Source: Sunxiuqinia indica (GTDB lineage Bacteria > Bacteroidota > Bacteroidia > Bacteroidales > Prolixibacteraceae). From it: DNA of 64,000 bases. The stretch lies in NCBI RefSeq assembly GCF_009847015.1, contig NZ_WVEM01000002.1, forward strand, positions 404,325 to 468,324, written 5' to 3'. Both the position numbers and the translations under genes were made by a program. The notes below the pieces were generated by a model. That model was not told the DNA's origin. It searched no databases and saw nothing but the letters and a program-made list of their open reading frames with translations. Below are positions 11,128 through 56,860 of this stretch, piece after piece. Every line of letters begins with the position of its first letter. The first letter of the stretch is position 1.

Positions 11128-14100
11128 ATGAAACAAAAATACAGGGCTATTTGCGAGTCAGGGATCAGTTGGAATACATTCAGAATAGGAAGTCTCTCTT
11201 TGCTTTTACTCAGCGTGATTTATTGCGGCAAGGCTACTGCGCAAAACTATTTTCAGCAGGAAGTCAATTTTGAAATAAAAGTCACACTCGACGATCAAAA
11301 TCACCTACTTCGGGGCAACGAGGTTTTTGAGTATATTAATCACTCGCCCGACACCCTCCATTTCCTTTATGTTCATCTCTGGCCAAATGCCTATTCTAAC
11401 AACGAAACAGCTTTAGCCAAACAACTGGTTCAATTATATGGCAAAGAAAAACTGTTCAATGATCCGTTGCTGGCGGGATCGATTGACTCTTTAGACTTCA
11501 GGGACAATAGTCAAAAACTTCACTGGCATTTTTTGAAGGATCAAGAGGATATCTGTCAGGTTCATTTGAATGAGCCGCTGAAGCCGGGCGATACAACTTA
11601 TATTAGCACTCCGTTTAGGGTTCAAGTTCCACAAGGCGAAATCTCAAGATTAGGCTCTAGTGGTAAATCGTTTCAAATTTCACAATGGTATCCAAAGCCA
11701 GCTGTTTACGACAAAGACGGCTGGCATCCCATGTCCTATCTGGATCAAGGCGAGTTTTATTCTGAATTCGGAACCTATGATGTATCGATTACGCTGCCCG
11801 AAAACTATACCGTAGCCGCAACCGGTGAGCTAAAAACCAGCCACGAATTACAACGGTTAGACCGTATCGCCAACGACACCATCCAATTTGACACGCTTGC
11901 AGAAGAAAAGGTTAGTGATTTGCCCGGTTCAGTAAAATTCAAAACACTTCGGTATACCAGTCAGAATATGCACGATTTTGCCTGGTTTGCTGACCCTGAT
12001 TTTCACCTCACAACACAGACGATATTATTGCCTGAATCTGACAGAAAAGTGACCATTTATGCTCTGTCTACGGATCATCAGGCAGAGCTCTGGGAGAACG
12101 CCTCATCTTATGCTTCCGATGCCTTGCTTGCTTTTTCCAAATGGATTGGCGACTATCCCTACTCCAGTTTCACAGTTGTTCAATCCAAACTTAAATCCGG
12201 GCTCGGAATGGAGTATCCGAGCTTGGCAGTTATTGGAGAGGCGAACGACGCCTACAGCCTCGATGAGGTCATTACCCACGAAATTTGTCACAACTGGTTT
12301 TACAGCTCGCTGGCGTCGAATGAGCGGTTGTACCCCTATCTTGACGAGTCGCTTACCAGTGCTTATACCGCACGACACATGTTGGAAAAGTATCCGGACT
12401 CTAAACTTTGGGAGATCTATATAAAAAACGAAACGCTGGCAAAATTCTTGAATCTTGATCAACAACATGTGCTGCAGGCAGAAGAATATTATTGGCTAAG
12501 CCAGGCTCGAAATAATCTTGAGCAACCAATTAACCTTGCTGCTACTGAGTTGAATGCCATCAACTATAGCCTGATTTTATACTACAAAGGAGCCCGGGGA
12601 ATAAACTATCTACGTGCGTATTTAGGTGATTCTCTTTTTGATTCGGCCATGAATGAGTATTATAACCGCTGGAAATTCAAACATCCGCAGCCCGCTGATT
12701 TCCGGCTTGCAATAGAATCGCACACGGGTAAGGACCTCGATTGGTTTTTTGAAGATTTTCTGGGCACAACCAAACGGCTTGATTACAAACTGGAACGCTT
12801 GCAAGACCAAAAACTTCTAATCAAGAATAAGGGAGAGTTGGTTTCGCCTTTGGTTATTGCCGGAATGAAAGATGATTCTGTTTATTTTGAAAAGTGGATT
12901 GATGGCTTTGACGGTCAACGATGGATTCAGCTTCCTGCTGGCAATTATACTGAAGTCAAAATCGACCCAAATCATGTGATGCCAGAGATCTTCCGAAAAA
13001 ATAATAACATCAGGGATCATGGTGTTTTTCGGAAGGCTGATCCGATTCAGCCTCAACTTTACTTTTCGATCGAAGATCAGGAAAAAAATAACCTCATGTT
13101 TTTTCCATCTTTCAGCTGGACCAGAGAAAATGGGGTAATGGCCGGAATGGCTTTGCACAATGGTTTTGTCATTCCGAAGCCATTAGAATACTTTATCATG
13201 CCTTTCTATGGTTTCAAACATTCCAAATTGGCTGGTTACGCAAGGATGTTCTATACCGTTACTCCGTTTCAAAAACTGGTTCGTAAGGCTACCTTTTCGC
13301 TTGAAGGAACCCAGTTTGGAGCTCCTGGCAATCAAAACTACCAAACCTTAAAAACCGGGGTGGAGCTTTTTTTTAGATCAAGTCAACAAAAACCATTTGT
13401 CCAAAGTATTTACGGGAATTACATTCTGGCATCCGACCTCTCTCAGTTAAACAGAGAAGAAAAGCCCGAACAAAACTCTTTCGTCCAAGTCGGATATCAT
13501 CTAAAAAAACGAAGCAGGATCAATCCGTTTATTTTACATAGTGCTGTTGAATATGCACAGGTTTATCAAAAAATAACAGCAGAATTGAATTACCGACTAA
13601 GTTACTATGGAGAAGGCCGGGGGCTGGACTTTAGATTGTATTCCGGTGCCATGCTGAACGAAGTTTCTGCGGCTTCGTTATACGGACTGGCTCCGGCCGG
13701 ACGAAGTGGTCGCGAATTATATCTTTATCAGGGTTTTTACCCCGATCGTTTTAGTGCGTTTCCATCAACATTCTGGTCGCGACAAATGACGCTGAACGAA
13801 GGAGGATTGGTTTCACCAGTCAACAAGAGTCTTGGCTATAGTGACTGGCTGTTTTCCTTGACCTTGACAAGCAGCTTGCCTCGCAAAATAGAAAAACTCC
13901 CCATCAAACCATTTTTAACTGTTTTACTTAATGATACCGGTGGTGAACACCACGATAATCCGAACGTTTTCTTCGAAGCTGGCGTTAAAACTGGATTCTG
14001 GAATCTAATTGAATTTTACATTCCTTTGTTTATCAGTAACAATATCAAATCAGAAATTGGGCCATTTAAAGATCGAATTCGACTGGTTTTTACACTAGAT

Positions 14101-14142
14101 TCATTCACTCAAATTAATTTAAATCAACGATCAGTATTCTAG
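11128..14142 (+). CDS. Secreted M1-family (aminopeptidase N-like) metallopeptidase
   Basis: I take the ATG at 11128 as start (1,004 residues) because a signal peptide ending near KATAQ follows; an upstream TTG at 11050 would bury it. The zinc site is complete: HEICH at about residue 384, then 18 residues to the Glu of YLDES, matching HEXXH-X18-E. The substrate-binding GxMEN-type motif appears as GLGMEY near residue 358, with Tyr in place of Asn. The first ~580 residues are the M1 core; the remaining ~400 are beta-rich with repeated aromatic strands and have the look of a membrane-associated C-terminal module. The protein probably trims peptides in the periplasm or at the surface. The fold assignment is strong; substrate unknown. 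Confidence 0.88.
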   Translation: MKQKYRAICESGISWNTFRIGSLSLLLLSVIYCGKATAQNYFQQEVNFEIKVTLDDQNHLLRGNEVFEYINHSPDTLHFLYVHLWPNAYSNNETALAKQLVQLYGKEKLFNDPLLAGSIDSLDFRDNSQKLHWHFLKDQEDICQVHLNEPLKPGDTTYISTPFRVQVPQGEISRLGSSGKSFQISQWYPKPAVYDKDGWHPMSYLDQGEFYSEFGTYDVSITLPENYTVAATGELKTSHELQRLDRIANDTIQFDTLAEEKVSDLPGSVKFKTLRYTSQNMHDFAWFADPDFHLTTQTILLPESDRKVTIYALSTDHQAELWENASSYASDALLAFSKWIGDYPYSSFTVVQSKLKSGLGMEYPSLAVIGEANDAYSLDEVITHEICHNWFYSSLASNERLYPYLDESLTSAYTARHMLEKYPDSKLWEIYIKNETLAKFLNLDQQHVLQAEEYYWLSQARNNLEQPINLAATELNAINYSLILYYKGARGINYLRAYLGDSLFDSAMNEYYNRWKFKHPQPADFRLAIESHTGKDLDWFFEDFLGTTKRLDYKLERLQDQKLLIKNKGELVSPLVIAGMKDDSVYFEKWIDGFDGQRWIQLPAGNYTEVKIDPNHVMPEIFRKNNNIRDHGVFRKADPIQPQLYFSIEDQEKNNLMFFPSFSWTRENGVMAGMALHNGFVIPKPLEYFIMPFYGFKHSKLAGYARMFYTVTPFQKLVRKATFSLEGTQFGAPGNQNYQTLKTGVELFFRSSQQKPFVQSIYGNYILASDLSQLNREEKPEQNSFVQVGYHLKKRSRINPFILHSAVEYAQVYQKITAELNYRLSYYGEGRGLDFRLYSGAMLNEVSAASLYGLAPAGRSGRELYLYQGFYPDRFSAFPSTFWSRQMTLNEGGLVSPVNKSLGYSDWLFSLTLTSSLPRKIEKLPIKPFLTVLLNDTGGEHHDNPNVFFEAGVKTGFWNLIEFYIPLFISNNIKSEIGPFKDRIRLVFTLDSFTQINLNQRSVF

Positions 14143-14296
14143 AACTTCTTCTGTTGAACTGATCGATTTTAAGACTTTGTTGAAATAGTCGTATTGTTAA
14201 AATAAACTACGTTGTGGTTGTCTGAAAGATTGGTCCGCTGTTGTGTAGATTTTTGTTTGGAATTAATTAACCGAGCGGTCTTGTATAAATAAAATA

Positions 14297-14330
14297 ATGA
14301 GAAGCTTTCAATTTGTGGAAAGCTTCTCAT
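14297..14330 (-). terminator. Hairpin after the ancestral tRNA 3' end
   Basis: A perfect 13-bp stem (14297-14309 with 14318-14330) with an 8-nt loop. Read on the minus strand it lies directly after the tRNA 3' fragment and is followed by a T-rich run, so it was probably the original terminator of the tRNA before the element inserted. Confidence 0.75.
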
Positions 14331-14334
14331 TTTC

Positions 14335-14379
14335 AGTAGCGAGAGGCGGGCTTGAACCGCCGACCTCATGATTATGAAT
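14335..14379 (-). repeat. Attachment-site repeat: 3' half of tRNA-Met left behind (left end)
   Basis: These 45 bp match 56785-56829, the 3' half of the intact tRNA-Met gene from the anticodon loop to just past the discriminator base, with two mismatches (14352 and 14356). The 5' half is absent here. For integration into a tRNA 3' end this is the displaced original end of the host gene. Confidence 0.9.
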
Positions 14380-14504
14380 TAAATAAAATCTGTTTTCTTC
14401 TATTTTTATCGTTTTGTATTTTATTGCTAATATCCAGTGTGGTAGGTATTTGTGTGGTGCTGTTAGTGATTTTTTATTTGCTTCATTTTGACGGATAGAC
14501 TAAT

Positions 14505-14528
14505 TTTGTGTGCAAATTGTGTGCAAAT
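14505..14528 (+). repeat. Left arm-type site: tandem TTGTGTGCAAA
   Basis: Two adjacent copies of the 11-bp unit TTGTGTGCAAA (14506-14516 and 14517-14527) lie just upstream of the integrase gene. The same 24 bp recur in the same orientation at 56717-56740, near the other end. Tandem short sites at both ends of an element are typical of integrase arm-binding sites; this role is inferred. Confidence 0.65.
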
Positions 14529-14558
14529 TTTTGTCGCACACAGAATAATTAGAAGGCC

Positions 14559-15788
14559 ATGTTTACATATGCAAATAATGGAATCACAATCGCTTCAATT
14601 CTTGATCAACGAAAAGAAATGAAAGGCGAGATATTCCCCGTAAAGATACGTGTAACTTTTAACAGAGTAAGAAAATACTATGCTACAGGAAAGAAGATGA
14701 GTATAGATGACTGGGAGAAATTGCCGGAAACAAGAAGTCGGAATAAGATCTCAGTTCGTAGTGATATTCAGTATTCGTTCGATAAAGTAAAAGACGCTGT
14801 CATAAAATTGGAACGGGAAGACGGTTTTTCTCTGACTGCGTTGAATAGTTACCTTGGAAAGAACTCGGGTGATACGTTAAATCAAGCTTTTCAATTAAAA
14901 ATCGAGACCCTATTAGAGAATGAACAGATTAATAGTAGTGAATATTATAGCTATACATTGAAGAGTATTGAGGAATTTGCGGGCAAGAATATTGGGTTCG
15001 ATTCTGTTACTCCGGATTGGTTACGCAAATTTGAGAAACATCTCCTGAAGGAAGGCAAGTCATACACTACGGTAGGAATGAGATGTCGCGCAATTCGGGC
15101 TGTAATGAATAGTGCCAAAGAAGCCCATATTGTTAAGGAAAGTCAATATCCTTTTGGCAGAGGGAAATATGAGATCCCAACTGGTCAGGGAAGGAAATTG
15201 GCATTAACGCTGCATCAGATTAAAAAATTGGTGACTTATACCGACGGGAGTGAAGCGATTGAGCACGCAAGGGACATGTGGTTTTTCTCGTATCTCTGTA
15301 ACGGAATAAACTTTGCCGATATACTGACACTCAAACGTTCTAATATTAAGAATGGAGAGATATCATTTATTCGGGCAAAGACAAAAACGACGGCAAAAGT
15401 AAAAAAGGAAATTAAAGCGATCGTGACGCCGGAAATGGAGGGGATCATGAAACGTTGGGGAAATAAGGATAAAAGTCAGGATAGTTACATCTTTGATTTC
15501 CTGAACGGTGATGAATCTCCAGCGAGAATAAAAGCGAGAACCAGGGATGTTATAAGTAATTGTAACCGTCGGCTTCGAAAAATTGGTAAAGCTATCGGCG
15601 TAGAGGGGCTGAGTACGTATTCTGCAAGACACTCTTTTGCAACTGTTTTGAAGAGATCCGGTTCAAACATTGCCTATATTTCAGAAAGTCTTGGTCATAA
15701 TGATCTCAAAACAACTGAGAATTACCTGGCTTCATTTGAAAAAGAGGAGCGGATTAAGAATGCAAGCTTCCTGACTAATTTTGACTAA
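14559..15788 (+). CDS. Tyrosine recombinase/integrase (Bacteroidota type)
   Basis: The 409 residues fit the family: an N-terminal arm-binding domain (about 1-90), a SAM-like core-binding domain (about 105-200) and a catalytic domain (about 215-400). Visible catalytic residues are Arg357 and His358 (SARHSFAT), His380 in LGHND and the nucleophile Tyr389 in ENYL. The first catalytic Arg is not where expected: the box reads YLCNGINFADI, with Asn in its place, a substitution seen in some Bacteroidota integrases. The gene lies 180 bp inside the left attachment repeat and next to the tandem arm-type site, so it most likely catalyses integration into tRNA-Met. Confidence 0.92.
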   Translation: MFTYANNGITIASILDQRKEMKGEIFPVKIRVTFNRVRKYYATGKKMSIDDWEKLPETRSRNKISVRSDIQYSFDKVKDAVIKLEREDGFSLTALNSYLGKNSGDTLNQAFQLKIETLLENEQINSSEYYSYTLKSIEEFAGKNIGFDSVTPDWLRKFEKHLLKEGKSYTTVGMRCRAIRAVMNSAKEAHIVKESQYPFGRGKYEIPTGQGRKLALTLHQIKKLVTYTDGSEAIEHARDMWFFSYLCNGINFADILTLKRSNIKNGEISFIRAKTKTTAKVKKEIKAIVTPEMEGIMKRWGNKDKSQDSYIFDFLNGDESPARIKARTRDVISNCNRRLRKIGKAIGVEGLSTYSARHSFATVLKRSGSNIAYISESLGHNDLKTTENYLASFEKEERIKNASFLTNFD

Positions 15789-15901
15789 AAGGCATTGGAG
15801 CTATCTCGTCCTAATATTTATTTATCCATAATTTATTGTTAGTCCGTTGGTGTTTATCAAAAGAATATTGGAAATTAGAGAACAATATAGAAAAATGAAA
15901 A

Positions 15902-16324
15902 ATGGCCCGTCGGAAAGTCCATAAAATCCTTGCTCGAGATACCGCTATCTTCAATGAGATTGTTGATGAGCTTCGAAAGCGATCTGATTTCGAGGAATAC
16001 GACATGGAAACCATTGAAATATCAGTGAAAAAGAAGATTGTCCCTCGAATCCGAAACATTGAGCACGCGATAGATAACCTGAAGAGATACATCGCAATAA
16101 ACAGTGCTTTCATAAAAACGGTTGAAGGGGAGCCGGTAACATCCAAAAAAGAAATTGTAAGAATGTTAAGGATTTCCAGACCGACGTTGGATAAGTGGAT
16201 TTCAGATGGTTTTATTACCCCAATCCGGGCTGGTGTATGTCCTAGTAAAGAAGTTTTTCCGCCCGAAGAGATACTGAAACAGCTACAAGATCAAAAGGAA
16301 AATCAAACAATAAAAAAGAAATAA
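15902..16324 (+). CDS. Helix-turn-helix DNA-binding protein of the replication module
   Basis: A 140-residue basic protein. The C-terminal third holds a MerR/excisionase-like HTH (KKEIVRMLRISRPTLDKWIS, about residues 82-102) followed by a short wing and the charged tail EEILKQLQDQKEN. The N-terminal half is helical with no known motif. It precedes a second HTH gene and a helicase gene on the same strand. A decayed relative stands in the equivalent place of the second module (39300-39494). Genes at this position usually act in excision or in control of replication; which applies here is not shown. Confidence 0.7.
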   Translation: MARRKVHKILARDTAIFNEIVDELRKRSDFEEYDMETIEISVKKKIVPRIRNIEHAIDNLKRYIAINSAFIKTVEGEPVTSKKEIVRMLRISRPTLDKWISDGFITPIRAGVCPSKEVFPPEEILKQLQDQKENQTIKKK

Positions 16325-16537
16325 ATCAACTTTACATCACGGGTATAGCTCCGTAATTTGCATGGAAAATGTAAATGTTAGGTGGAAGAATTAAACTTTA
16401 CTTGCTTCTTTTGGGTGGATAAAATACTTGATTGAAGATCGTGTATAGCTATTTGGAGTGTTGATAATGAGTTTCTTGTGTTTTTATTTTGCTTTTAAGT
16501 TCAATAAAAAAGAAGTAGAAATAAAAACGTGAAAGCA

Positions 16538-16876
16538 ATGTCAAACATTATTGTAACAACCCCTGAGGAATTGAAGGAAATCATTACCGATGTTATTTCC
16601 AAAGTTTTACCCAAACAAGCGGCCATTCAAGAGACAATCGATTCCATTACTTTAAATGATGCAGTGGAAGTGTTGAGAGAGAACGGATATCCAACTTCAA
16701 AAGCGAAGATCTACAAACTTACTTCAACCGGGAAGATTCCGGTAAAAGTTTACGGGAACAAGCTCGTGTTTTCTCGCAAAGAGATTCTGCAGTGGGCCGA
16801 AAATCAGTCAAAACCAAAGCATGACTATAGCCAGGCTTGTAGTACGATCGCGAGGAGTGCGAGACGGAAAAAGTGA
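16538..16876 (+). CDS. Excisionase-like HTH protein, module 1
   Basis: 112 residues from the ATG at 16538 (MSNIIVTTPEEL); the in-frame GTG at 16529 is less likely because the paralogue at 39716 starts the same way. The core is an HTH_17-type DNA-binding domain (GYPTSKAKIYKLTSTGKIPV, then FSRKEILQWAEN). It is very similar to the product of 39716-40054. Both genes directly precede a helicase-like gene, so the protein is probably a control or loading factor of the replication module. Confidence 0.8.
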   Translation: MSNIIVTTPEELKEIITDVISKVLPKQAAIQETIDSITLNDAVEVLRENGYPTSKAKIYKLTSTGKIPVKVYGNKLVFSRKEILQWAENQSKPKHDYSQACSTIARSARRKK

Positions 16877-16953
16877 ATACTCCATGGATCCAACTGGCTG
16901 TTGGTATCCAGTTGTCAAGTTTCTATTCACGTAATTCACAAGTTCCATCTATC

Positions 16954-18147
16954 ATGAAAAGAAATGGTAAAGTTGTCCCATTCAAGCAGCAGGAGCAAGA
17001 TCGTGGTTTGAGGGATTTGAAAGAATTTTTAAGGGCAAATTACGATATTCGTTTTAATAGCGTTACTGAAAAGAGCGAGTTTAAACGTAATGGGGAGCGT
17101 TGCTTCATATCTCTGGAAGACTATTATTTAAATTCTATTTTTTTCAATATAAAATCTAACGGAATAAAAGTTTCAATTGACAATTTACGACGTTTGTTGG
17201 AGTCTGATTTTGCGGAAAGAGAGAATCCGATTAAAAGTTATATCGAGGATTTACCTCAATGTATCGGAATTACAAATATTGAGAAGATCATTAATACTGT
17301 TGATTTCGAAACCGTGGAGGACCATCATTTTTTCAAGAAGGTTTTCCCCAAATGGTTTGTGGCTCTGGTTGCCAATGTTTTTGATGAGGATCGGTGTACG
17401 AATCATACTTGCTTAGTCTTTACCGGAGCCCAAGGGAAGAGAAAGACAACCTGGTTCAATCAAATCATTCCACCTGAGTTGGATCCGTATAAATTCAATG
17501 GAAAGATTGATCCGAACAGTAAGGATACGCTGGCTTTGATTCACAGTAAACTCCTGATTATTATCGATGATCAATTAAAACAGATCAACAAGAAGGATGA
17601 AAATGATATCAAGGAGTTGATAACCAAAGATAAAGTCACTTATCGAAAGCCATTTGCAGTTTTTGATATGACACGCCCGCATTTAGCTTCGTTTGCTGCA
17701 ACTGTTAATGGAGATGACTTTCTTACCGATGCGACTGGCTCAAGGAGGTTTCTGTCATTTTGCGTTCAAAACTGTAATGTTGAAAAACTCAAAGAAGTGG
17801 ATTTGGCCAAGGCATACGCTGAGGCGTATCATCTTTATTTATCCGGATTTCGGTATTGGTTTAATGATGAGGAGGTGGCAGAGATTAATCAGAAGAATGA
17901 GGAATTTACTTCTGTTTCAATTGAGATGGAGTTAATTGACAAATACTTTGATGTCGATGGTTTAGAAAAAGAGTTTTATTCAGCTGGTGAAATCAAGCTG
18001 TACTTGGAAGCCTTCACGAAAAATTATATTTCAACTAAAAGAATAGGAGAGGCGCTGTCAAAACTGGGTGTAAAGCGCATATCGGTTAGAGATGATCAGG
18101 GCAGAATCAGGAAGAAATATCCAATTAAAAGGCGGACAATATGCTAA
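16954..18147 (+). CDS. VapE/VirE-type P-loop ATPase (replication helicase-like), module 1
   Basis: 397 residues from the ATG at 16954. A GTG at 16873 overlaps the stop of the previous gene and would add 27 residues, so translational coupling there is possible. The Walker A motif GAQGKRKTT and the Walker B motif LLIIIDD are clear, followed by a sensor region (HLASFAATVNGDDFL, GSRRFLSF) typical of the virulence-associated E family of SF3-like helicases in mobile elements. It very likely unwinds the element's origin. An iteron-like cluster follows at once. Confidence 0.85.
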   Translation: MKRNGKVVPFKQQEQDRGLRDLKEFLRANYDIRFNSVTEKSEFKRNGERCFISLEDYYLNSIFFNIKSNGIKVSIDNLRRLLESDFAERENPIKSYIEDLPQCIGITNIEKIINTVDFETVEDHHFFKKVFPKWFVALVANVFDEDRCTNHTCLVFTGAQGKRKTTWFNQIIPPELDPYKFNGKIDPNSKDTLALIHSKLLIIIDDQLKQINKKDENDIKELITKDKVTYRKPFAVFDMTRPHLASFAATVNGDDFLTDATGSRRFLSFCVQNCNVEKLKEVDLAKAYAEAYHLYLSGFRYWFNDEEVAEINQKNEEFTSVSIEMELIDKYFDVDGLEKEFYSAGEIKLYLEAFTKNYISTKRIGEALSKLGVKRISVRDDQGRIRKKYPIKRRTIC

Positions 18148-18164
18148 TTCGAAAAATAAGTGAC

Positions 18165-18368
18165 TAAACTGACTACATCTTCAAAATACTAGTATTTATG
18201 GGCAAAACAGCCACTAATCAAATGACTACATAACTGACTACAACGTGACTACATGACTACAAATAATCAAGAAGTTGTAGTCAGTTATGTAGACAGATGA
18301 TAAACTAGGTCGGTACGTGTTTAAAGTTCAGTATATCAGTGCTTAAAAGATGTGTAGTCACTGTAGTC
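18165..18368. repeat. Iteron-like cluster after the module 1 helicase gene
   Basis: The 7-mer GACTACA occurs five times forward (18171, 18224, 18236, 18247, 18255) and three times inverted as TGTAGTC (18276, 18353, 18362). Inside lies a perfect 19-bp inverted repeat (18226-18244 with 18274-18292, loop 29 nt). Such a cluster beside a helicase gene is what a replication origin or an autoregulatory operator would look like. Which of the two it is cannot be told from sequence alone. Confidence 0.65.
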
Positions 18369-19164
18369 AGGAAAACTTGGCATCCTTGTATCTTCTTTTT
18401 TTGTTGTTTTATTAGTTATATGTATCACGAAATTTATTGAATCGGTTGTTATTCAATTTGTTGAAGGTGTCTGGAACTCGGATTTCTTTAAAGTGCGTTT
18501 TTTGCCAGGCAAGATGTGTTTTCGTACGGACAAGAACCTCGTGCCAACAAGTTGGGGGAGGGGCGCAACTTGGGGAAAAAGGTTTAGTATTCTAAAGGGA
18601 GATGGAGAAGGCGGTTTTACGAGAAATGGATGCTGCCCTTTTCACAAACCAAAGTCATCTCTATTGCTTCGGTTTATCAATTCTCGTTATTGTGTTCGCT
18701 TGTTATGCTGTTTTAGTGTTTCGATGTTAGTGTGTTCGCTTGTCCGGATTATATATAATTTTTTGGGAGCGGTTTTCTTTCGTTGCAGTTGAAATTATCA
18801 GTGTGTCGATGGAGCACCAGAATCTAGCAGTCACGTAATCCTAGCTAAAATAAAAGAGTTGGATGGTTATCTTATTGATGAGGGATGAAGGTTTTGCGTT
18901 AAATACTGTGTTAATATTCTGTGGTGTTGTTTATTTCCATCGGAATACACTTTTTTGTTGAAAATAACCATCAATGTAATATCTGAAAAGTAAATGTGGA
19001 AAATCATAGATTGAAAAGAAGAGGAGAACGCATCAAACAAAGGAGGTTGCAGAGCACGCTGAAAATGAACATTGAATGCTATATTGTTCCGTGAAATTGT
19101 CTCACAATAACATTCAATTTGCAGAATAACAATTGCAGTGTTATTGTGCAGATTATACGTTAGT
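18369..19164. other. Gene-poor stretch with a possible origin of transfer
   Basis: There is no convincing gene. Around 18541-18575 there is a GC-rich patch with a small inverted repeat, CAAGTTG (18548-18554) and CAACTTG (18566-18572), separated by a G-rich loop and followed by GGGG. It stands out from the AT-rich surroundings and could be a nick-region hairpin or a relic of one. A 99-residue frame crosses it (18493-18792), but nothing in its composition suggests a real protein. Confidence 0.3.
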
Positions 19165-19956
19165 TTATTGTTTTTCAGTTCTATTTCTATCTATCTCAAA
19201 ATAAGCCTCACTGCTATATCTAGCATGTTCGTTCCGATCAATATAGCCCAATTGGTTTGTTAATATTTGCGTCTTTCCGATTTTAAAAGCCGGAATATTG
19301 ACATGATGATGACCAAAAATCCAGGCGTAGGGCCCAAATTTTTCGATCAGTGGTGAAAGCTCTGTTGCAAAAGCTTCATTCAGACTATCACCTTTGTACT
19401 GCTCCGGATAATTCATGAATGTGGGGACATGGTGCGAACATACTACAACCGGGCAACCGTTCAGTTTTTCGAGTTCTTCTCGTATAAAAGCCCGGCTTTT
19501 GCGGTGCAACAAGTTTGCGCCAACAGATGAAAAACGTGATCGACCGGTTTTAATGACATGAAAATCATTCATGCAGCGTTCAATCATCCAAGCGTTTTGA
19601 ATACTAATTTTAGACCATAGGGTTGCCGCAATAAAGTTCACTCCTTCGTAATTAATTGTGGTATCATTGACCAATGCGATGTTGTTTCGAATTTCCCGAT
19701 GTAGCGGATGTTCGTACGTGTCGAGATTTTCCCTGTAATACTCATGATTGCCAGGTACCCAAATCACTTGCTCGAACTCGTTGGCAAGTCTATCGAAGAA
19801 CCAGTTGAAACGCGAGATGGAACCCAAGGGGACAATGTCTCCCGCCAGAACAAGGATTGGCGCGACCGGATGAATCGGATTTGCTCGAATGAATTGTTCA
19901 TTCTTCGGAAATTCCAAGTGTAAGTCGGAGCAATATTGGATGGTTAAATGACTCAT
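19165..19956 (-). CDS. Calcineurin-like metallophosphoesterase
   Basis: 263 residues with the full set of metal-binding motifs in order: SDLHLE (D-x-H) at residue 10, AGDI, GNHE near residue 70, SHH near residue 175 and GHHH near 217. The family cleaves phosphoester bonds with two metal ions; its members act on nucleotides, nucleic acids or phosphoproteins, and the substrate here is unknown. The protein is cytosolic, with no signal peptide. A decayed copy of its 3' end lies 3.2 kb away (22331-22616), so the gene was once duplicated in this element. Confidence 0.85.
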   Translation of the reverse strand: MSHLTIQYCSDLHLEFPKNEQFIRANPIHPVAPILVLAGDIVPLGSISRFNWFFDRLANEFEQVIWVPGNHEYYRENLDTYEHPLHREIRNNIALVNDTTINYEGVNFIAATLWSKISIQNAWMIERCMNDFHVIKTGRSRFSSVGANLLHRKSRAFIREELEKLNGCPVVVCSHHVPTFMNYPEQYKGDSLNEAFATELSPLIEKFGPYAWIFGHHHVNIPAFKIGKTQILTNQLGYIDRNEHARYSSEAYFEIDRNRTEKQ

Positions 19957-20196
19957 CGAATTCTAATTCTGCTATGTATTTGGTGCTTTCGCAACAACGC
20001 TAATTTCTATTATGAATCTAGTTTGTTCAAATTTCAGTCTTCTTTTTTTTGTAGAAAATCCGAGAACAGGCCCGCAGGCACGTGTTCCCGGGTGCATTCT
20101 TAACTATAAATCCAAGGCTAAAATACGATTTCTTATCAGAGGATGATATAATCCTTATTTTCAAAAGAGGAAAAAACGGAAGAAGAAGAATTAGAT

Positions 20197-21117
20197 TTAG
20201 AATAGAATACCCTTTAGGTTTTCGATAATCTGTTTGTGTTTATTGGGATTGTCCTTCTTTAACTTCTGTAAATTAAGTAGTTTCCATTTGATTGCTGGTA
20301 GGTCCTTTAAAACAGGGTGCGGAAACAACTTCCAGTCTGGCTCTCCCATTTCGAAGCTTAATAAAAATCGCTTTTCATCTTCAGTAAGTCTTTGTTGGAT
20401 GGTTTCAATTAACGTTGTTCTGGTTTTTTCGTAATCATCATACGAAAATTCAACAGAAGTCATCCCTGCGAATTGGTTGTCAAATGCAGACTTTTGGTCT
20501 TTTAGGAGGGGAGATAATAATTCACTTATTGGCTTGTAATGGCTAATCAATCCAATTTTTACGCCATCCCATATTCCATCGGTTAATCCTTTATTTTCCA
20601 ATAGTAGCTTAACATCAAATATATCACGAGGATGTTGCCTGTCGATTGCAGCGCAAATTTTACCACCGTATAATTCTGCTAACGATACTACGTTGATCGC
20701 TGCAAACTTGTCAAATTCATCCTGAACAGAATCAACAACCTGCATCAGTTCAGTTGGAAATACATTACCTCTGGTAATGGTGTTAACTTCAATTTTAATT
20801 TGAGCATTTTTCCCCTGGACATTTAATTTCACATCGGTTCCTCCATTTAATGGCACGGTATGAACTTTTACGTCAGGTACATTTTTTTCGATATCAGCTT
20901 TTATACGTGTTAATCCATCCTGAATATTATTCAAAGCATCTTCTCTTGAATCTAATGGTAGATAAGTAAGGTCGATATCCACAGATAAACGAGGCATATT
21001 TCTTACAAATAGGTTAATGGCTGTTCCACCTTTTAGGGCAAAATTCTTCTCTTTTGCTACAAAAGGCAAAACCTGTAATAATAAATCTACCTGAGCTTTA
21101 TATGTCGTAGAAATCAT
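20197..21117 (-). CDS. AbiEii/AbiGii-type nucleotidyltransferase toxin
   Basis: 306 residues with the DUF1814/AbiEii nucleotidyltransferase signature: KGGTAINLF near residue 28 and LSVDIDLTY near residue 44, supplying the catalytic Asp pair, then the later AELYGGKICAAIDRQHPRDI block. Family members add nucleotides to target RNA (shown for tRNA in related MenT toxins) and halt growth, for example upon phage infection. It overlaps the upstream gene by 4 bp (ATGA), so the two are co-translated as a type IV-like toxin-antitoxin pair. Confidence 0.85.
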   Translation of the reverse strand: MISTTYKAQVDLLLQVLPFVAKEKNFALKGGTAINLFVRNMPRLSVDIDLTYLPLDSREDALNNIQDGLTRIKADIEKNVPDVKVHTVPLNGGTDVKLNVQGKNAQIKIEVNTITRGNVFPTELMQVVDSVQDEFDKFAAINVVSLAELYGGKICAAIDRQHPRDIFDVKLLLENKGLTDGIWDGVKIGLISHYKPISELLSPLLKDQKSAFDNQFAGMTSVEFSYDDYEKTRTTLIETIQQRLTEDEKRFLLSFEMGEPDWKLFPHPVLKDLPAIKWKLLNLQKLKKDNPNKHKQIIENLKGILF

Positions 21118-21881
21118 AAATCTGCTAATTCTTTAGGGATTGAGAGTAAATATTTAGGAACGTGTACGCCTTTTTCTGCAAGCATTCGGTTCCCGGTTCC
21201 AATATCTATTTTATCTGTTTTTAAAAACGTTAACCATTGATGATTGGCCTTTTCTGTCATATAAAGAAATAAACGCTTAACTTTTACCGAATTGCACTGG
21301 GTTAGAAGTTCATTAACCAGTTTAGGCTTTAAATTTACCAGGCCTTCAAATATGTGAAAGCATTCGACCAAATCCATTTTTTGAGGAGCCAAGTATAAAC
21401 ATTCCATGATGGCTCTTTCGGGCGTAGAAACATTTATTTGTATTTGACCTTGCTCTAATACTTTTATACCTAAGTCCGATGGCAAAAATGAACTCAAGTG
21501 ATGTTGTAAATCTAACCCCCAATTGTAGTCGGTAAACCACTTTGGTAGCTTAGTCTTTAAAGGAGAGAATAATTGCAAGGATTCATTGTTCATGCGAAAG
21601 TAATGACTATAACCTTGCAGTGCCAATGCAGATAATCCACCGACATGAACATTGGTTGCAGTTTGTTTCTGTATGGCATTTAAGGCACCTTGCCATTCTA
21701 TTTTATCCCCCGGTTTCTTATAAGCACTTCGCCCAATTGATTCGAGCCAGCCACTTTTAAGATAGTATTTTTGTAAATCTCTGGATATGCCATAAGCTTC
21801 CAACCAGTCGACAGTAACCACACAGCCGGGTTGTAATATCTTGAATAGTCTTTTTAAATATGTCTTGTTTTGGGTAGTCAT
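21114..21881 (-). CDS. AbiEi-like antitoxin/transcriptional regulator
   Basis: 255 residues with an N-terminal winged-helix region (about 1-90) and a C-terminal AbiEi-like domain, including the recognisable STPERAIMECLYLAP block. In AbiE systems this protein represses the operon and neutralises the nucleotidyltransferase. It lies directly upstream of the toxin gene and overlaps it by 4 bp, the usual order antitoxin then toxin. Confidence 0.82.
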   Translation of the reverse strand: MTTQNKTYLKRLFKILQPGCVVTVDWLEAYGISRDLQKYYLKSGWLESIGRSAYKKPGDKIEWQGALNAIQKQTATNVHVGGLSALALQGYSHYFRMNNESLQLFSPLKTKLPKWFTDYNWGLDLQHHLSSFLPSDLGIKVLEQGQIQINVSTPERAIMECLYLAPQKMDLVECFHIFEGLVNLKPKLVNELLTQCNSVKVKRLFLYMTEKANHQWLTFLKTDKIDIGTGNRMLAEKGVHVPKYLLSIPKELADL

Positions 21882-39299: not shown

Positions 39300-39494
39300 A
39301 GGGGTAAATGCGTCGGATTTATTTTAGAAAAGGATATTGCCAAGATTCTAAATGTTTCTCTCTCATCTCTTAATAAATGGATTGAGGACGGATTTATAAG
39401 CTTTGTAAAATGAAGAGTGCTGAACAATACAGAGATCTTCCCCCTGATCTGATCTGATCTGAAACAACTTCAAACACAAAAGAAAAAAATGTAA
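39300..39494 (+). pseudogene. Decayed HTH gene of the second module
   Basis: One frame reads KDIAKILNVSLSSLNKWIED and then breaks; another frame continues LKQLQTQKKKM and stops. Both match the HTH and tail of the intact 15902-16324 product (KKEIVRMLRISRPTLDKWIS; LKQLQDQKEN). A frameshift and a stop after GFIS kill the gene. The order relic, HTH gene, helicase gene mirrors module 1. Confidence 0.8.
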
Positions 39495-39715
39495 AAATAG
39501 TTTTCAGCTTTACACGGATTTTGTTTGTATCGTTTTATTCCCAATTGTAAATTGATAAGTGTAATCCGAGGATTTATCCCTCATTTTTTGCCACTTTTTA
39601 CTTCGTTTTGTGCTTTTGAGTAATGCGGATTATCCGTTTGATTACCAGTTGTATTCATTTTTATTTTGCTCTTGAGTTTAATTAAAATTTAGGTGTAAAT
39701 ATAAAATTGAATATT

Positions 39716-40054
39716 ATGTCGGACATTATTGTAACAACGCCCGAAGAACTACGGGCAATCGTAAGCGAAGCCGTATCCCGGGCACTCCCCAAACAGGCTT
39801 CGCCCCAGCCAATCATTGATACGATGACCTTGGACGATACTTTGAAATTGTTAAAGGAACACGGCTATCCAACCTCAAAGGCAAAAATCTACAAGCTAAC
39901 CTCTACCGGAAAAATTCCTTGCAAGACGTATGGCAATAAACTGGTCTTTTCGAGGAAAGAAATACTGTTGTGGGCAGAGAATCAGACCAAAGCAAAGCAT
40001 GATTCTTCCAAAGTATGTTTGCCCATCGTGCGAAGTGCCAGACGTAAAATGTAA
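39716..40054 (+). CDS. Excisionase-like HTH protein, module 2
   Basis: 112 residues from the ATG at 39716 (MSDIIVTTPEELR), close paralogue of the 16538-16876 product through the HTH (GYPTSKAKIYKLTSTGKIP) to the basic end SARRKM. It is six bases upstream of the module 2 helicase gene. Codon use is more GC-rich than in the module 1 copy, which suggests separate histories. Likely role: control or loading at the module's origin, or excision. Confidence 0.8.
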   Translation: MSDIIVTTPEELRAIVSEAVSRALPKQASPQPIIDTMTLDDTLKLLKEHGYPTSKAKIYKLTSTGKIPCKTYGNKLVFSRKEILLWAENQTKAKHDSSKVCLPIVRSARRKM

Positions 40055-40059
40055 GTGCT

Positions 40060-41271
40060 ATGACTGATAAGACACAAGAAAAAAAGCAGAAGGGTCAATA
40101 CGTTCGTGTTGGAACGACCTTGTATAAGATCGTGCAGCGACCGCTTATCAGTGGTGATTTTGTTGAAGAGAAAATCCCCTGGAGTTATGAAACGCTTCGG
40201 CAGGATTACGGAAAAAACAGCCTCCCGGAAATCGATAAATACGATGGTTTCTGCATCATCCCGGATCACATTCATTATAAGCAGATCCATGGTACCTATC
40301 TCAATAAATACGAATCATTGAATTATGTGCCTGTACCTGGAGAATTCCCAAATATCCGAATGTTTCTGGACCATATTTTCAGAGATCAAATTGAGCTGGG
40401 GCTGGACTACATCCAACTCCTTTACACCAAGCCGACACAAATACTGCCTATTTTGTTGCTGGTCTCCAAAGAAAGTAATACAGGCAAAACAACTTTTCTG
40501 CGATTCCTGAAAATGATCTTTGGTAAAAACTCGACCTTCAACAACAACGAAGATTTCCGCAGTCAGTTTAACGCAGATTGGGCAAACCGTCTGCTGATCC
40601 TGGTCGATGAGTTGTTGTTGAACAAAATGGAGGATACTGAGAAGATAAAAAATCTTGCAACTGCTATTGATTATAAGATGGAGGCGAAAGGCAAAGACCG
40701 GAAAGAAATTGAATTCTTCGCAAAATTTGTGCTTTGCTCCAATAAAGAACACAATCCTATTATTATCTCGAGAGAAGAAATCCGTTTTTGGGTGCGAAAA
40801 GTGCATACAATAGAAAAGGACGATGTTTACCTGAAGGAAAAAATGGCTAAAGAGATTCCTTTTTTCCTGCACTTTCTCCTTCATCGGAAACTTTCAACAG
40901 AGGATCAGTCACGCATGTGGTTTAGCCCTGCAGCAATAGAAACTCCGGCTTTAAGAAAAGTGAAAAGGTATAATGTCAATAAAGTAGAAATTGAACTGGC
41001 TACCTATTGCTACGACGTTATGGATGGTTTAGCGCTGGATAAAATGTGGTTCTGCCCGAAAGATCTTGCAGAAGTAATACGTGAAACCGGCTTACGCGCA
41101 GACATTGGGATGGTTCGGAATATACTCAAGGACAACTGGGGGCTAAGCTCACATAAGAACAGTGAGTACAGTTTTTATCATATTGACGCAAATGGAGAAA
41201 TTGTTCCGGTGAAAAGAAAAGGGCGTTACATGGAAATCACACTTGATCAGGTCAATAAAATCCTGTTGTAA
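40060..41271 (+). CDS. Primase-helicase-like P-loop ATPase (DUF5906 type), module 2
   Basis: 403 residues. Walker A is SKESNTGKTTF near residue 145, Walker B is LLILVDELL near residue 180, and a sensor-like block KFVLCSNKEHNP follows. It belongs to the DUF5906/SF3-like helicases of phages and mobile elements. It replaces the VapE-type protein in the equivalent position of module 1; the two share layout more than sequence. An iteron-like cluster of other sequence follows directly. Confidence 0.82.
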   Translation: MTDKTQEKKQKGQYVRVGTTLYKIVQRPLISGDFVEEKIPWSYETLRQDYGKNSLPEIDKYDGFCIIPDHIHYKQIHGTYLNKYESLNYVPVPGEFPNIRMFLDHIFRDQIELGLDYIQLLYTKPTQILPILLLVSKESNTGKTTFLRFLKMIFGKNSTFNNNEDFRSQFNADWANRLLILVDELLLNKMEDTEKIKNLATAIDYKMEAKGKDRKEIEFFAKFVLCSNKEHNPIIISREEIRFWVRKVHTIEKDDVYLKEKMAKEIPFFLHFLLHRKLSTEDQSRMWFSPAAIETPALRKVKRYNVNKVEIELATYCYDVMDGLALDKMWFCPKDLAEVIRETGLRADIGMVRNILKDNWGLSSHKNSEYSFYHIDANGEIVPVKRKGRYMEITLDQVNKILL

Positions 41272-41460
41272 TGTTGTGTATTGCTCTTTAATATGTTGAA
41301 ATATAGAAAGTAATATGTAACAACAACACTACAACAACGACACAACAGAATCTGCTTTGTTGCACGCAGATTGCAACATTTAAATTGTTTGTTGTGTGAT
41401 TGTTGGATTTGTAAGTAATTGAAATATAATTGTTTAATCTTGTCTTGCAACAAAGCAACA
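41272..41460. repeat. Iteron-like cluster after the module 2 helicase gene
   Basis: Within 190 bp the hexamer ACAACA or its complement TGTTGT, and the variants GCAACA/TGTTGC, recur about ten times (for example GTAACAACAACACTACAACA and TTTGTTGTGTG). A small inverted repeat TCTGC...GCAGA lies in the middle. Position and structure match the cluster after the module 1 helicase, but the repeated word differs. Probable origin or operator region. Confidence 0.55.
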
Positions 41461-41474
41461 GAAAATCAGAACGA

Positions 41475-42362
41475 ATGGCGCTATCCGAAATAAAACAACT
41501 AAGCATCAGGGATTATCTCCATCTGAAAGGGATACGACCAAAAAAAGATTTTAATAACTACGGTATGTATTTATCTCCATTCCGGGAGGATAACAATCCC
41601 AGTTTTAAAGTGGATTATCAGAAAAATATCTGGTATGATTTCGGGAGCAACGAAGGTGGCTCAATTATCGACCTGGTAATGAAAATGGATAACTGCTCAT
41701 TTCATGACGCAGTAACAAGCTTGGAAAATGATATTACTGGACCTGTGCGGAATTCTTTTTCTTTTCACCGGGAAGAACTTAGTCCGATTAACAAAGAATC
41801 AGCGATTACGATTCGTGATATTAGGCCGATATCGCACCCCAAGCTGATCGATTGGGTAAAAACAAGGAAGATTGATTTGTCGTTGGCAAATTTGTATTGC
41901 CGTGAAGTCCACTACCAAAACAGTGGTCGGATTTACTACTCAATTGGATTTGGTAATGACAAAGGAGGTTATGAGCTGAGTAGCCCTGTCGGTTTTAAAG
42001 GCTGTGTTCCTCCGAAGGAAATTTCTACGATAAAAAACGCGAATTATGTCTGCCTGGTATTTGAAGGATTTTGGGATTTTCTGTCCTATCTGACTTTGCA
42101 AAGAACTGATAAAACACAATACGATGTTGTGGTTTTAAATTCTGTGGCGAATATCCAGAAGGCTCTTCCCTTTCTGAAAAAGCATACCAATATTTTTGCT
42201 TACCTGGATAATGATGAAGGCGGGCGAAAAGCATTTGACAAGATAAAGTCTTGCTGTCCCCAAGCTCAGGATATGTCTAAGCGATATGCCATTTATAAAG
42301 ATCTCAATGAATACCTCTGTTCTCGGATGCGGATAAAAAAGGACAGGGGGATTGAGCGATAG
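41475..42362 (+). CDS. Toprim primase with a degenerate CHC2-type N-terminal domain
   Basis: 295 residues from the ATG at 41475 (a start at 41430 lies inside the iteron cluster). The N-terminal part follows the CHC2 primase layout (SPFREDNNPSF, NIWYDFGSNEGGSIIDLVM), but the zinc-binding Cys/His residues are absent. The Toprim part has LVFEGFWDFLSYL, with the catalytic Glu, and FAYLDNDEGG, with the Asp pair. It should make primers for the element's replication after transfer or at its origin. Module 1 has no counterpart. Confidence 0.85.
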   Translation: MALSEIKQLSIRDYLHLKGIRPKKDFNNYGMYLSPFREDNNPSFKVDYQKNIWYDFGSNEGGSIIDLVMKMDNCSFHDAVTSLENDITGPVRNSFSFHREELSPINKESAITIRDIRPISHPKLIDWVKTRKIDLSLANLYCREVHYQNSGRIYYSIGFGNDKGGYELSSPVGFKGCVPPKEISTIKNANYVCLVFEGFWDFLSYLTLQRTDKTQYDVVVLNSVANIQKALPFLKKHTNIFAYLDNDEGGRKAFDKIKSCCPQAQDMSKRYAIYKDLNEYLCSRMRIKKDRGIER

Positions 42363-42898: not shown

Positions 42899-43837
42899 AT
42901 GATCGCTAAAGCCAAAGCCATAGAACACGGTAGCAGGGCCATCGAATATGCTCTGCGGGAATCCAAGAAAGGAGTCCTGGTCATGTCTCACCTGGTACAA
43001 AACGAAACGGCAGACACTATTCACAAGGAGTTTTTGGAGCTTCAGGCCTGCAATACCCGGTGTAAGAATAAGTTTATCCGTATCGAGATAGGCATTGCCC
43101 CAGGAGATGAGAGCAAGCTTAAACACAACGATCTTGAGCGGATATGCTCCGAGTTCAGTAAACGTTTTGGTTTTGAGAACCACCAGTGGATTGCCTGCAC
43201 ACACCGGGATACCGATCATTTGCATATGCACATGATTGTGAACCGGATCGGGTTGGATCACAGTGTATATGATACCAGTTTTATCAGTAAACGAGCCGGA
43301 AAGATTGCGGAAGAGATAAGCCGGGAAATGGGATTAACGATTGCGAACGAGGTAAAACGGCAAAGCAAATACCGACCAGAGGTGAGCAGTTTTGAACGGA
43401 TACTGGCCAGAACAAGGATCGTTAAAATAGCAGGCGAAGTATTAACCGGCCATCCTCAGTCTTTAGCTGAATTTTCCAAAGAAATGAGACAGAAGGGAGT
43501 TGATGTCCAGGAAGCGGTTAACAAAAAAGGCAACACTTATGGATTGCGCTTCAGTGGTTACGGCCAGACTTTTAAGGCCTCCCAGATCGGCAAGGAGTTC
43601 GGATACCGCACATTGTTGAACACCTTCTCAGTAAACAAGCAAGCGGTCACGCAGGATATGCAGGTAAAGGATCAGAAACAGTCGCAGGGCAGATCTGTCG
43701 GTGGATCACTACTGGCTGGTTTAGGTGCTGTAATCAACCCAGGTGGGTCCATGCGGGGAAGTGAAGCGCAGGAAAGAGAAGAGGAAAGACGGCGTAAACT
43801 AAAAAAGAAAGGACGAAAAAATGGGCGGAAATTATAA
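42899..43837 (+). CDS. MOBP-type relaxase/mobilisation nuclease
   Basis: 312 residues, a relaxase domain (Pfam mobilisation nuclease type) at about 1-180 with the metal-binding histidine motif HRDTDHLHMHMIVNRI near residue 102, and a basic C-terminal tail ending in KKKGRKNGRKL. The catalytic Tyr candidate is in the N-terminal region (Tyr19 in AIEYALRE). It would nick the element at its origin of transfer and lead the strand into a recipient using another element's secretion machine. Confidence 0.88.
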   Translation: MIAKAKAIEHGSRAIEYALRESKKGVLVMSHLVQNETADTIHKEFLELQACNTRCKNKFIRIEIGIAPGDESKLKHNDLERICSEFSKRFGFENHQWIACTHRDTDHLHMHMIVNRIGLDHSVYDTSFISKRAGKIAEEISREMGLTIANEVKRQSKYRPEVSSFERILARTRIVKIAGEVLTGHPQSLAEFSKEMRQKGVDVQEAVNKKGNTYGLRFSGYGQTFKASQIGKEFGYRTLLNTFSVNKQAVTQDMQVKDQKQSQGRSVGGSLLAGLGAVINPGGSMRGSEAQEREEERRRKLKKKGRKNGRKL

Positions 43838-44380: not shown

Positions 44381-44589
44381 TGAAACAGTTGGCGGAGTTT
44401 GTAAAAGAGAGACGTAAGGAAGTGAATCTTACTCAAGAAGAGTTTGCTGAACGTGCGGGTGTTGCACTGACGGTAATTCGGAAAATTGAACAAGGGAAGA
44501 CAAATCTGAATATGGATAAGGTCAACTTGGTATTGAGGATGTTTGGTCATGAGTTGGCCCCGGTTAATAGTAAAGAATTGAACGGATGA
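44380..44589 (+). CDS. hipB: HipB-like XRE antitoxin/repressor
   Basis: 69 residues, almost only a Cro/C1-type HTH (LAEFVKERRKEVNLTQEEFA; GVALTVIRKIEQGKTNLNMD). It is shorter than E. coli HipB. The start codon overlaps the third operator, and its end overlaps the next gene by 4 bp (ATGA). It should repress the operon and, with HipS, hold the kinase in check. Confidence 0.85.
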   Translation: MKQLAEFVKERRKEVNLTQEEFAERAGVALTVIRKIEQGKTNLNMDKVNLVLRMFGHELAPVNSKELNG

Positions 44590-44921
44590 GAAAAGGGAAC
44601 GTTTTTTATAGGGATTATTTCGCTGGAACAATCACAGAAACGGATGATGGGGAATATGTTTTTCAGTACGATTCGGCGTATGTGAGTGAGCATCCGGAAT
44701 TGTTTCTCTCGTTTACGATGCCAGTTACAGATAAGCCATACTCCGATAAGCGGTTGTTCCCATTTTTTGAAGGGCTTATTCCTGAGGGATGGTTACTTGA
44801 AATAGCGTCAGAGAACTGGCGGATCAACCAAAATGATCGTATGGGATTACTTTTGGCATGTTGTCAAAATTGTATCGGAGCAGTAAGTGTTGTACCAATT
44901 GAGGAGGGAGATGATGCGTAA
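44586..44921 (+). CDS. hipS: HipS-like protein (free-standing HipA N-subdomain 1)
   Basis: 111 residues covering only the small N-terminal subdomain of HipA: GTITETDDGEYVFQY, then FEGLIPEGWLLEIA and a C-terminal NCIGAVSVVP. In the HipBST system of enteropathogenic E. coli this part is a separate protein, HipS, that works as the antitoxin. Gene order (B, S, T), size and overlaps here are the same. It is therefore not a broken hipA gene. Confidence 0.8.
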   Translation: MRKGNVFYRDYFAGTITETDDGEYVFQYDSAYVSEHPELFLSFTMPVTDKPYSDKRLFPFFEGLIPEGWLLEIASENWRINQNDRMGLLLACCQNCIGAVSVVPIEEGDDA

Positions 44922-46400: not shown

Positions 46401-47132
46401 CTATTCTACAGATTGAGTTTCTTTTTTCAGAATCTTATCCAAGACGACATCTTTATCCAGTTTTTTGGTGCAGAAGAACCAGTCTTTGCAGTCAAGTTCT
46501 TCGTCTTCCATTCGTCCTTTAGCTGCTCCGCAGGAACCGGCAGGACTAATAATTACATCATCACCAGGACGCCAGTCAGCAGGAGTGGCAATCTTGAATT
46601 CGTCAGCTGCTTGCAAGGCTACAACCACCCGGTATAATTCGTCAAAGTTTCTTCCCAAACTTAACGGGTAGTAAATGATCGTTCTTATAATCCCCTTCGG
46701 ATCAATAAAGAAAACTGCTCTGACCGCTTTTGTTGAATCTTCATTGGGTTGGATCATCCCGTATTTTTTGGCAACATCCATTTTAATGTCTTCAATCAGC
46801 GGGAAGTTCACTTCAACGTCCTTCATACCTTTATATTCAATTTTTTCCTTGATGGTTCTCAACCATGCAATATGGCTGTACAAACCATCAATTGAAAGCC
46901 CGACAAGTTTACAGTTTGCTTTTGCAAATTGATCTTCCATCGTCGCGAAAGTCATGAACTCAGACGTACACACCGGAGTGAAATCGGCAGGGTGGCTAAA
47001 AAGGATAACCCATTCACCTTTGTAGTCAGATGGGAAATTGATTTCGCCCTGAGTTGTTATGGCCGTAAACTCGGGAGCAGCGTCGCCAATTCTTGGCATG
47101 CTTACTACTTGTTGTTCTTGATTATTTTCCAT
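46401..47132 (-). CDS. Peroxiredoxin of the Prx6/archaeal thioredoxin-peroxidase type
   Basis: 243 residues from the ATG at 47132; the frame is open to 47195, but that would overlap the ferritin gene. The peroxidatic Cys is in HPADFTPVCTSEF (near residue 56). The resolving region GSCGAAKG...LDCKDWFFCTKKL carries further Cys residues, as in archaeal Prx. It reduces hydrogen peroxide and organic peroxides in the cytosol. Third gene of the operon perR-ferritin-prx (gaps 24 and 19 bp). Confidence 0.92.
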   Translation of the reverse strand: MENNQEQQVVSMPRIGDAAPEFTAITTQGEINFPSDYKGEWVILFSHPADFTPVCTSEFMTFATMEDQFAKANCKLVGLSIDGLYSHIAWLRTIKEKIEYKGMKDVEVNFPLIEDIKMDVAKKYGMIQPNEDSTKAVRAVFFIDPKGIIRTIIYYPLSLGRNFDELYRVVVALQAADEFKIATPADWRPGDDVIISPAGSCGAAKGRMEDEELDCKDWFFCTKKLDKDVVLDKILKKETQSVE

Positions 47133-47151
47133 TTTGAAAATTTTAAGTTTA

Positions 47152-47649: not shown

Positions 47650-47673
47650 TTTAATTGGTGCTATAATTTATTT

Positions 47674-51348: not shown

Positions 51349-51366
51349 TTCAAATTCGATTTAAGG

Positions 51367-56784: not shown

Positions 56785-56829
56785 AGTAGCGAGAGGCGGG
56801 CATGATCCGCCGACCTCATGATTATGAAT
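56785..56829 (-). repeat. Attachment-site repeat within tRNA-Met (right end)
   Basis: Copy of 14335-14379 with two differences, both in the T-loop. It spans the tRNA from the anticodon loop to the 3' end. In this geometry the tRNA 3' half at this end was brought in by the element. Confidence 0.9.
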
Positions 56830-56860
56830 CATGCGCTCTAACCAGCTGAGCTACCTCGCC
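56787..56860 (-). tRNA. tRNA-Met (anticodon CAT)
   Basis: 74 nt that fold as a cloverleaf: acceptor stem of 7 bp including two G-U pairs, D-arm GCTC/GAGC, anticodon stem CATGA/TCATG with loop TTCATAA, T-stem GGCGG/CCGCC. CAT in the anticodon gives Met, or Ile if the C is modified to lysidine. CCA is not encoded. The T-loop is ATCATGC: position 54 is A and 58 is T, the reverse of the near-universal T54/A58, while the displaced fragment at the left end has the normal TTCAAGC. Confidence 0.93.

Follow-up and report, generated by a model that had tools for sequence, protein, structure and literature searches.

What is the function of a dense cluster of short repeated words that follows a vapE gene in an island of Sunxiuqinia? 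In the window (the whole stretch of DNA that was analysed, 64 kb in length), the 7-mer GACTACA occurs eight times within 18171-18368, and a recount bore out the five forward and three inverted copies given in the first-pass annotation. The conserved unit is longer than this 7-mer, namely the 8-mer TGACTACA. Exact copies lie at 18170, 18223, 18235, 18246, and 18254 on the (+) strand and at 18276, 18353, and 18362 on the (-) strand, and copies with one mismatch at 18161 (+) and 18288 (-). The cluster lies directly 3' of the VapE-A stop codon and has the following parts:

18161..18369, no strand assigned: origin candidate A, ten TGACTACA words (eight exact and two with one mismatch) in 209 bp
18161..18177, + strand: outer doublet, two forward words 9 bp apart
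18223..18261, + strand: central group, four forward words with spacings of 12, 11, and 8 bp
18276..18295, - strand: inverted word pair, two words 12 bp apart, which together with 18223-18242 gives a 19-bp inverted repeat
18353..18369, - strand: outer inverted doublet, two words 9 bp apart

Chance does not account for this density, as had been claimed before and as both shuffles and Markov sequences confirmed. The whole 64 kb contain 21 copies of GACTACA vs 4.4 expected from shuffles. A 205-bp stretch holds eight copies inside the cluster and never more than one elsewhere; among the 7-mers of 30 Markov sequences, each 64 kb long, none exceeded four copies per 205 bp. The 13 copies outside 18161-18369 are also more than the 4.4 that shuffles predict for the entire window.

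The cluster belongs to the left end of a 42.5-kb island bounded by two att copies. This end consists of an integrase, a 140-aa HTH protein, a 115-aa HTH_17 protein, VapE-A, and the cluster (module A):

14335..14379, - strand: attachment-site copy, a 45-bp duplicate of the tRNA-Met 3' end (43 of 45 bases identical to 56785-56829)
14505..14528, no strand assigned: candidate integrase arm-type site TTTGTGTGCAAATTGTGTGCAAAT, a 24-mer repeated without change at 56717-56740, close to the second att copy
14559..15788, + strand: tyrosine integrase, 409 aa (Pfam Phage_integrase 1.9e-14, Phage_int_SAM_5 4.1e-15)
15902..16324, + strand: 140-aa HTH protein (weak HTH_17 match under the Pfam cut-off; relatives adjoin VapE-B in other elements)
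16529..16876, + strand: 115-aa HTH_17 protein, excisionase-like (PF12728 5.4e-8; weak PHROG excisionase match, 0.00083)
16873..18147, + strand: VapE-A, predicted AAA+ initiator helicase (PF05272 1.9e-34)
56786..56860, - strand: intact tRNA-Met (CAT), the insertion target, with the att copy at 56785-56829

Two features that characterize integrative mobilizable elements are present: a site-specific integrase with att repeats, and the element's own relaxase at 42899-43837, which lies within the att-bounded island by a second module (module B) and not by module A. No phage-packaging gene was found among 40 window proteins scanned with Pfam. Other genes of the island include an AbiEi/AbiEii toxin-antitoxin pair (20197-21881) and a HipA-like kinase (44586-45852) that is split into overlapping ORFs for an N-terminal domain of 111 aa and a C-terminal domain of 321 aa. 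The cargo at 46401-55671 comprises genes for a peroxiredoxin, a ferritin-like protein, Fur, a metallo-hydrolase, a thioesterase, a NUBPL/Fe-S ATPase, and a pyridine nucleotide-disulphide oxidoreductase with rhodanese, and resembles an iron-sulfur or redox-stress set.

VapE-A models as an AAA+ initiator helicase with PriRep1 as its closest counterpart. PriRep1 bound to dsDNA (7pds) was matched by sequence (1.6e-11), profile (5.3e-30), and fold (7.8e-17), so that VapE-A is homologous to the initiator helicases of the SaPI Rep/PriRep type, and the SaPI5 primase-helicase (7ola) was matched by fold only (1.4e-6). Among fold matches, PriRep1 was best, the C-terminal region of NrS-1 was also found, and the SaPI5 primase-helicase and D5 ranked lower. 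The AF2 model (pLDDT 85.9) ends in a C-terminal strand-helix-helix-strand-strand unit, and residues ~367-420 can be read as a winged helix. In VapE-A and its nearest relatives the second Walker-A glycine is absent, with RKT or FKT for GKT (residues 185-192), and Walker B has DDQ in place of DE (residues 232-234). Both deviations occur together in 13 of 32 aligned rows, and since both motifs deviate, helicase activity of VapE-A is not assured.

The two arms, at 18226-18244 and 18274-18292, match exactly as reverse complements, and with 89% identity they can be lengthened to 28 bp. One explanation of the locus is therefore a hairpin device, in which the 19-bp inverted repeat acts as a terminator, oriT, or single-strand origin; the strong predicted single-strand fold of the cluster (z -4.74) speaks in its favour. 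A close relative allows the words and the arms to be considered separately. Locus L003, a contig of a Sunxiuqinia MAG (Prolixibacteraceae), is 96% identical to the window over 14332-18774 and has a different left flank. It is the same record as a contig of G107, so the two were counted as one relative. Selection on the adjoining proteins is apparent in this comparison, with seven synonymous and no non-synonymous differences in the integrase and a pN/pS of 0.10 for VapE-A. Of the 12 differences found in the 209 bp of the cluster, none touches any of the 80 bases that make up the words (hypergeometric P 0.0025); the words are selectively conserved relative to the surrounding bases. The longest inverted arms found in L003 are 20 nt at 80%. 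Because the repeat is degraded in a 96%-identical relative that keeps all 80 word bases, we consider it incidental: the first-pass annotation was right that the repeat is exact, and its role as a functional unit was rejected. Moreover, no terminator-like site was found in 18100-18800, an Rfam RNA search of 14000-20000 gave no match, and the only relaxase among the scanned proteins is 24.5 kb away, in module B. A hairpin device is accordingly a most improbable explanation.

To see whether such clusters recur, 163 loci with a VapE relative were gathered, of which 113 were non-redundant after removal of short, identical, and 80%-similar loci. A cluster was scored when no more than one of 200 shuffles, which preserve dinucleotide content only, equalled the clustering of a 7-mer within 350 bp past the end of VapE. 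By this test a cluster directly follows VapE at 54 of the 113 loci, compared with 3/108 upstream of VapE, 1/111 within VapE coding DNA, and 8/109 at +700 to +1050. Iterons immediately 3' of the rep gene, as in SaPI/PICI modules, are found in the window and at these 54 loci. The first-pass annotation had read the position after VapE as a sign of an origin and had proposed a search behind homologous VapE genes, where absence of a cluster would speak against its reading. The search was run, and the presence of clusters in L003 and at 54/113 loci supports that assignment. The 59 loci missed by the strict exact-7-mer test include some with degenerate words (module B among these), some with distant words, and some with nothing that could be seen. 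At L004, scored as a miss, words lie ~770-970 bp past the VapE stop, behind an apparent small gene pair. The length of VapE explains little, since clusters follow 22 of 52 proteins of at least 560 aa and 32 of 61 shorter ones.

The association extends to phages and plasmids. Twenty such records were examined, nine of which (L084-L092) are also among the 163 VapE loci; the stretch tested was 600 bp in one set (226 bp for FPSV-S8) and 350 bp in the other (450 bp for p2-NIES88). The 7-mer test was passed by seven of them: the Flavobacterium phages lotta8-2, FPSV-S8, and FPSV-S1 (the last two closely related), the plasmids pGO128 (4.3 kb), pPSEST02, and p2-NIES88 (3.1 kb), and L182, an unverified gut scaffold with four copies that may be a coding repeat. 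Phage phi17:1 passes with 8-mers only. The remaining 12 (phi38:2, pTM2, the Prevotella element L090, pAL20115c, pCACC737_3, five gut scaffolds, Mica, and P12024S) did not pass. In p2-NIES88 (L191), a cyanobacterial plasmid of 3117 bp, nine AGGTAGG words lie between convergent 3' ends, where no promoter would be expected. Its entry in the PLSDB table, which is incomplete, lists two genes, for VapE and an 89-aa protein. VapE is the obvious initiator candidate, and this plasmid is a possible minimal model replicon.

This arrangement also bears on an operator array, in which the words would serve as binding sites for an HTH_17 regulator, or for VapE repressing its own expression, and govern transcription of vapE or of later genes. 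Short-word arrays can be operators, and two HTH genes lie directly upstream of VapE-A. In addition, a primase gene follows the cluster in several relatives, namely L007 (whose word is TTACTACA), L008, and L013 (all three by eye from sequence), as well as L090 and module B. Against such control stand the position of the cluster in p2-NIES88 as annotated and the orientation of the next Pfam-supported gene past cluster A (19165-19956), which is on the opposite strand. Between the two lies an ORF of 99 aa (18493-18792) that has no Pfam match; if it is not a gene, cluster A also lies between convergent 3' ends. A promoter scan of 18100-18800 gave one site vs 2.0 expected. Furthermore, three phages with the cluster have no annotated HTH gene in the stretch shown, where many genes are hypothetical. 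With the divergence of words between modules A and B described below, an operator array appears unlikely.

Module B lies in the right part of the island:

39707..40054, + strand: HTH_17 protein, 68% identical to the 115-aa HTH_17 protein of module A
40060..41271, + strand: VapE-B, DUF5906 family (PF19263 1.6e-20)
41321..41463, no strand assigned: origin candidate B, degenerate CAACAAAA words, weak within the window alone
41430..42362, + strand: CHC2/Toprim primase (PF01807 2.5e-14, PF13155 3.2e-13)
42899..43837, + strand: MobA/VirD2-type relaxase (PF03432 9.3e-27)

The model of VapE-B (pLDDT 79.4) is nearest in fold to the C-terminal region of NrS-1 (1.9e-12), followed by the SaPI5 primase-helicase (3.8e-5). 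No exact copy of CAACAAAA occurs in the window; six of its seven one-mismatch copies are in 41321..41463, and the 7-mer test of this module was matched by 58 of 200 shuffles. The positions and signs of the words are common to the relatives L055-L059 and L062, which are 73-92% identical, and ancestry alone could suffice to explain this. The listed primase start at 41430 is mechanical and a later ATG near 41476 is likelier, so the overlap of the primase with the origin B words is probably not real. Upstream of the module, 39327-39479 is a remnant of a relative of the 140-aa HTH protein (43% over 51 aa), and its sequence suggests a truncated older element.

Which protein reads the words? Modules A and B have HTH_17 proteins that are 68% identical, VapE proteins without a meaningful BLAST alignment, and different words. 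Given such similar HTH_17 proteins beside differing words, HTH_17 is probably not the word binder. Of the two HTH proteins of 140 and 112 residues proposed earlier as binders, this comparison disfavours the second (115 aa in the list above). In a wider comparison of HTH proteins and words, a recognizable HTH relative was found within 1.5 kb upstream at 15 of 157 loci, each of which is a copy of module A or B or closely related to one of them. Across 54 loci, word similarity correlated with VapE C-terminal identity when the ATPase domain was allowed for (partial r 0.23, p 0.001), and with the ATPase domain when the C-terminal region was allowed for (partial r 0.13, p 0.025); three of these VapE sequences had an in-frame stop dropped. 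Comparison of the sequences suggests that the word tracks the C-terminal region of VapE, with a modest effect.

Single linkage sorted the cluster words into 21 groups, the largest of which covers 28 loci whose words all have TAC on one strand. Among the same-strand neighbour spacings listed, 177 of 244 are 8-11 bp, in a count that excludes copies <7 bp apart by construction. A recurrent plan reads, 5' to 3', outer doublet, inverted word ~44 bp on, central triplet, inverted words, and outer inverted doublet. The single inverted word that relatives carry ~44 bp past the first doublet is not recognizable in cluster A of the window. At L039, L042, L026, and L047 the first six positions agree within four bases, and the words are ATTGTAA, ATGTAAG, GTAGTAA, and GTAGTCA. 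For pairs of loci with dissimilar words (52 loci), the signed layout was better than all 40 position shuffles in 167 of 1096 pairs, compared with 27 expected. The plan is common to subsets of loci and not to all, because the other 929 pairs do not beat every shuffle and the pairs are not independent. Related elements thus often appear to keep the word spacing and change the word, each VapE having its own word.

Elements of G130, G043, and G061 have integrases that are 71-72% identical to that of the window, lie beside a tRNA-Met-type att sequence, and carry HTH genes, VapE-B, and its words where the window carries VapE-A and its words. Judged from these sequences, VapE plus its words may be an exchangeable unit between homologous elements. 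The simplest reading of the window island is a composite, in which a younger left end of A type would have joined the right-hand portion of an older element of B type. Three words are present in this genome, those of modules A and B and that of L081 on contig C36. In a further element, of G131 (L176 16304-17576), with an integrase 63% identical to that of the window, an HTH_17 match is followed within ~85 bp by a match to the primase; neither VapE nor words are present, and by eye there is an apparent short VapE-B tail only.

These elements are also informative on a recombination or excision site, in which the words would be arm-type or enhancer sites for the integrase or excisionase. NBU1-type excision requires several genes and sites besides the integrase, which counts for such a site. 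Nevertheless, the words differ in the three elements with 71-72% identical integrases, and a separate 24-bp arm-type repeat is found near both att copies. Phages and small plasmids with no annotated tyrosine integrase adjoining the cluster likewise have it behind VapE, and two of the plasmids have another recombinase gene. We regard a recombination site as very unlikely.

The cluster is very probably the replication origin of the integrative element, and its TGACTACA words would be iterons bound by the C-terminal winged helix of the VapE encoded just upstream. The tyrosine integrase would first excise the element. VapE-A oligomers would then assemble on the doublets and the central group, melt the DNA, and load themselves as helicase, after which a primase, encoded by the following gene in several relatives, would start synthesis. 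For module A, the primase may be that of module B, 23 kb away, or DnaG of the host. Of this model, we infer the binding, the unwinding, the replication, and the primase supply.

The nearest known system is the replication module of SaPIs and PICIs. According to passages of PMC7581432, the C-terminus of SaPI Rep recognizes an iteron origin directly downstream of the rep gene. Shared features are a homologous initiator of the AAA+ type (sequence match to 7pds, fold match to 7ola), iterons in opposed sets directly after the initiator gene (as described in parts of PMC7581432 and PMC6092414), and a C-terminal unit that, in the model of VapE-A, could bind DNA. On the other hand, the window element is a Bacteroidota island with a MobA-type relaxase and no packaging gene among the scanned proteins. 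An AT-rich gap separating the iteron sets was looked for at 52 loci and did not appear (longest gap 0.70 vs 0.69 for other spacers, p 0.40). A primase adjacent to or fused with rep is a mark of the SaPI/PICI module, and none was found in the window beside module A; in VapE relatives the primase, where seen, comes after rep rather than before it or fused to it. VapE clusters also occur in phages and tiny plasmids. The comparison with SaPIs, many of which carry toxin genes, is based on structures and on descriptions in papers. The origin would work like that of a SaPI or PICI, and the element is not called a PICI because it has no AT-richer gap, no module-A primase, and is a relaxase-bearing island.

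Other systems share single features. In SCCmec, according to PMC7581432, the C-terminus of the initiator helicase Cch2 binds short repeats (AAGTG) directly after its gene; there are three such 5-nt iterons, in contrast to the ten 8-mers of the window. It is another element with another recombinase, likened here by description. VapE-B weakly matches the P4-family primase-helicase model TIGR01613 (26.9 bits vs a cut-off of 108.7) and VapE-A does not match it; unlike in that family, primase and helicase are separate genes in the window element. The gene order of Bacteroides NBU1-type mobilizable elements is integrase, small HTH genes, a larger gene, primase, and mob, and the order in the window matches it. 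PMC7145576 describes a satellite whose initiator belongs to another family, RepA_N. No paper linking VapE to iterons, or describing such an origin, was among the matches listed in the open-licence literature.

On balance, we favour the view that the VapE family, which takes its name from virulence, is made up in large part of replication initiators that load themselves and are each paired with a short origin word of their own. The geometry of the origin would stay constant, and the word would drift or be exchanged along with its vapE gene between otherwise homologous elements; several replicons could thus coexist in one genome or island without interfering with one another. If this is true, it would provide Bacteroidota mobilizable elements with a replication system, and an origin plan like that of PICIs would extend beyond them. 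For these elements there would be an origin and an initiator that can be tested; a 2017 review of IMEs (PMC5704250) states that replication of the excised forms had never been studied. The many natural pairs of VapE and word could be used to read a recognition code. VapE, regarded in PMC7981956, for example, as a virulence factor, would gain a concrete molecular role.
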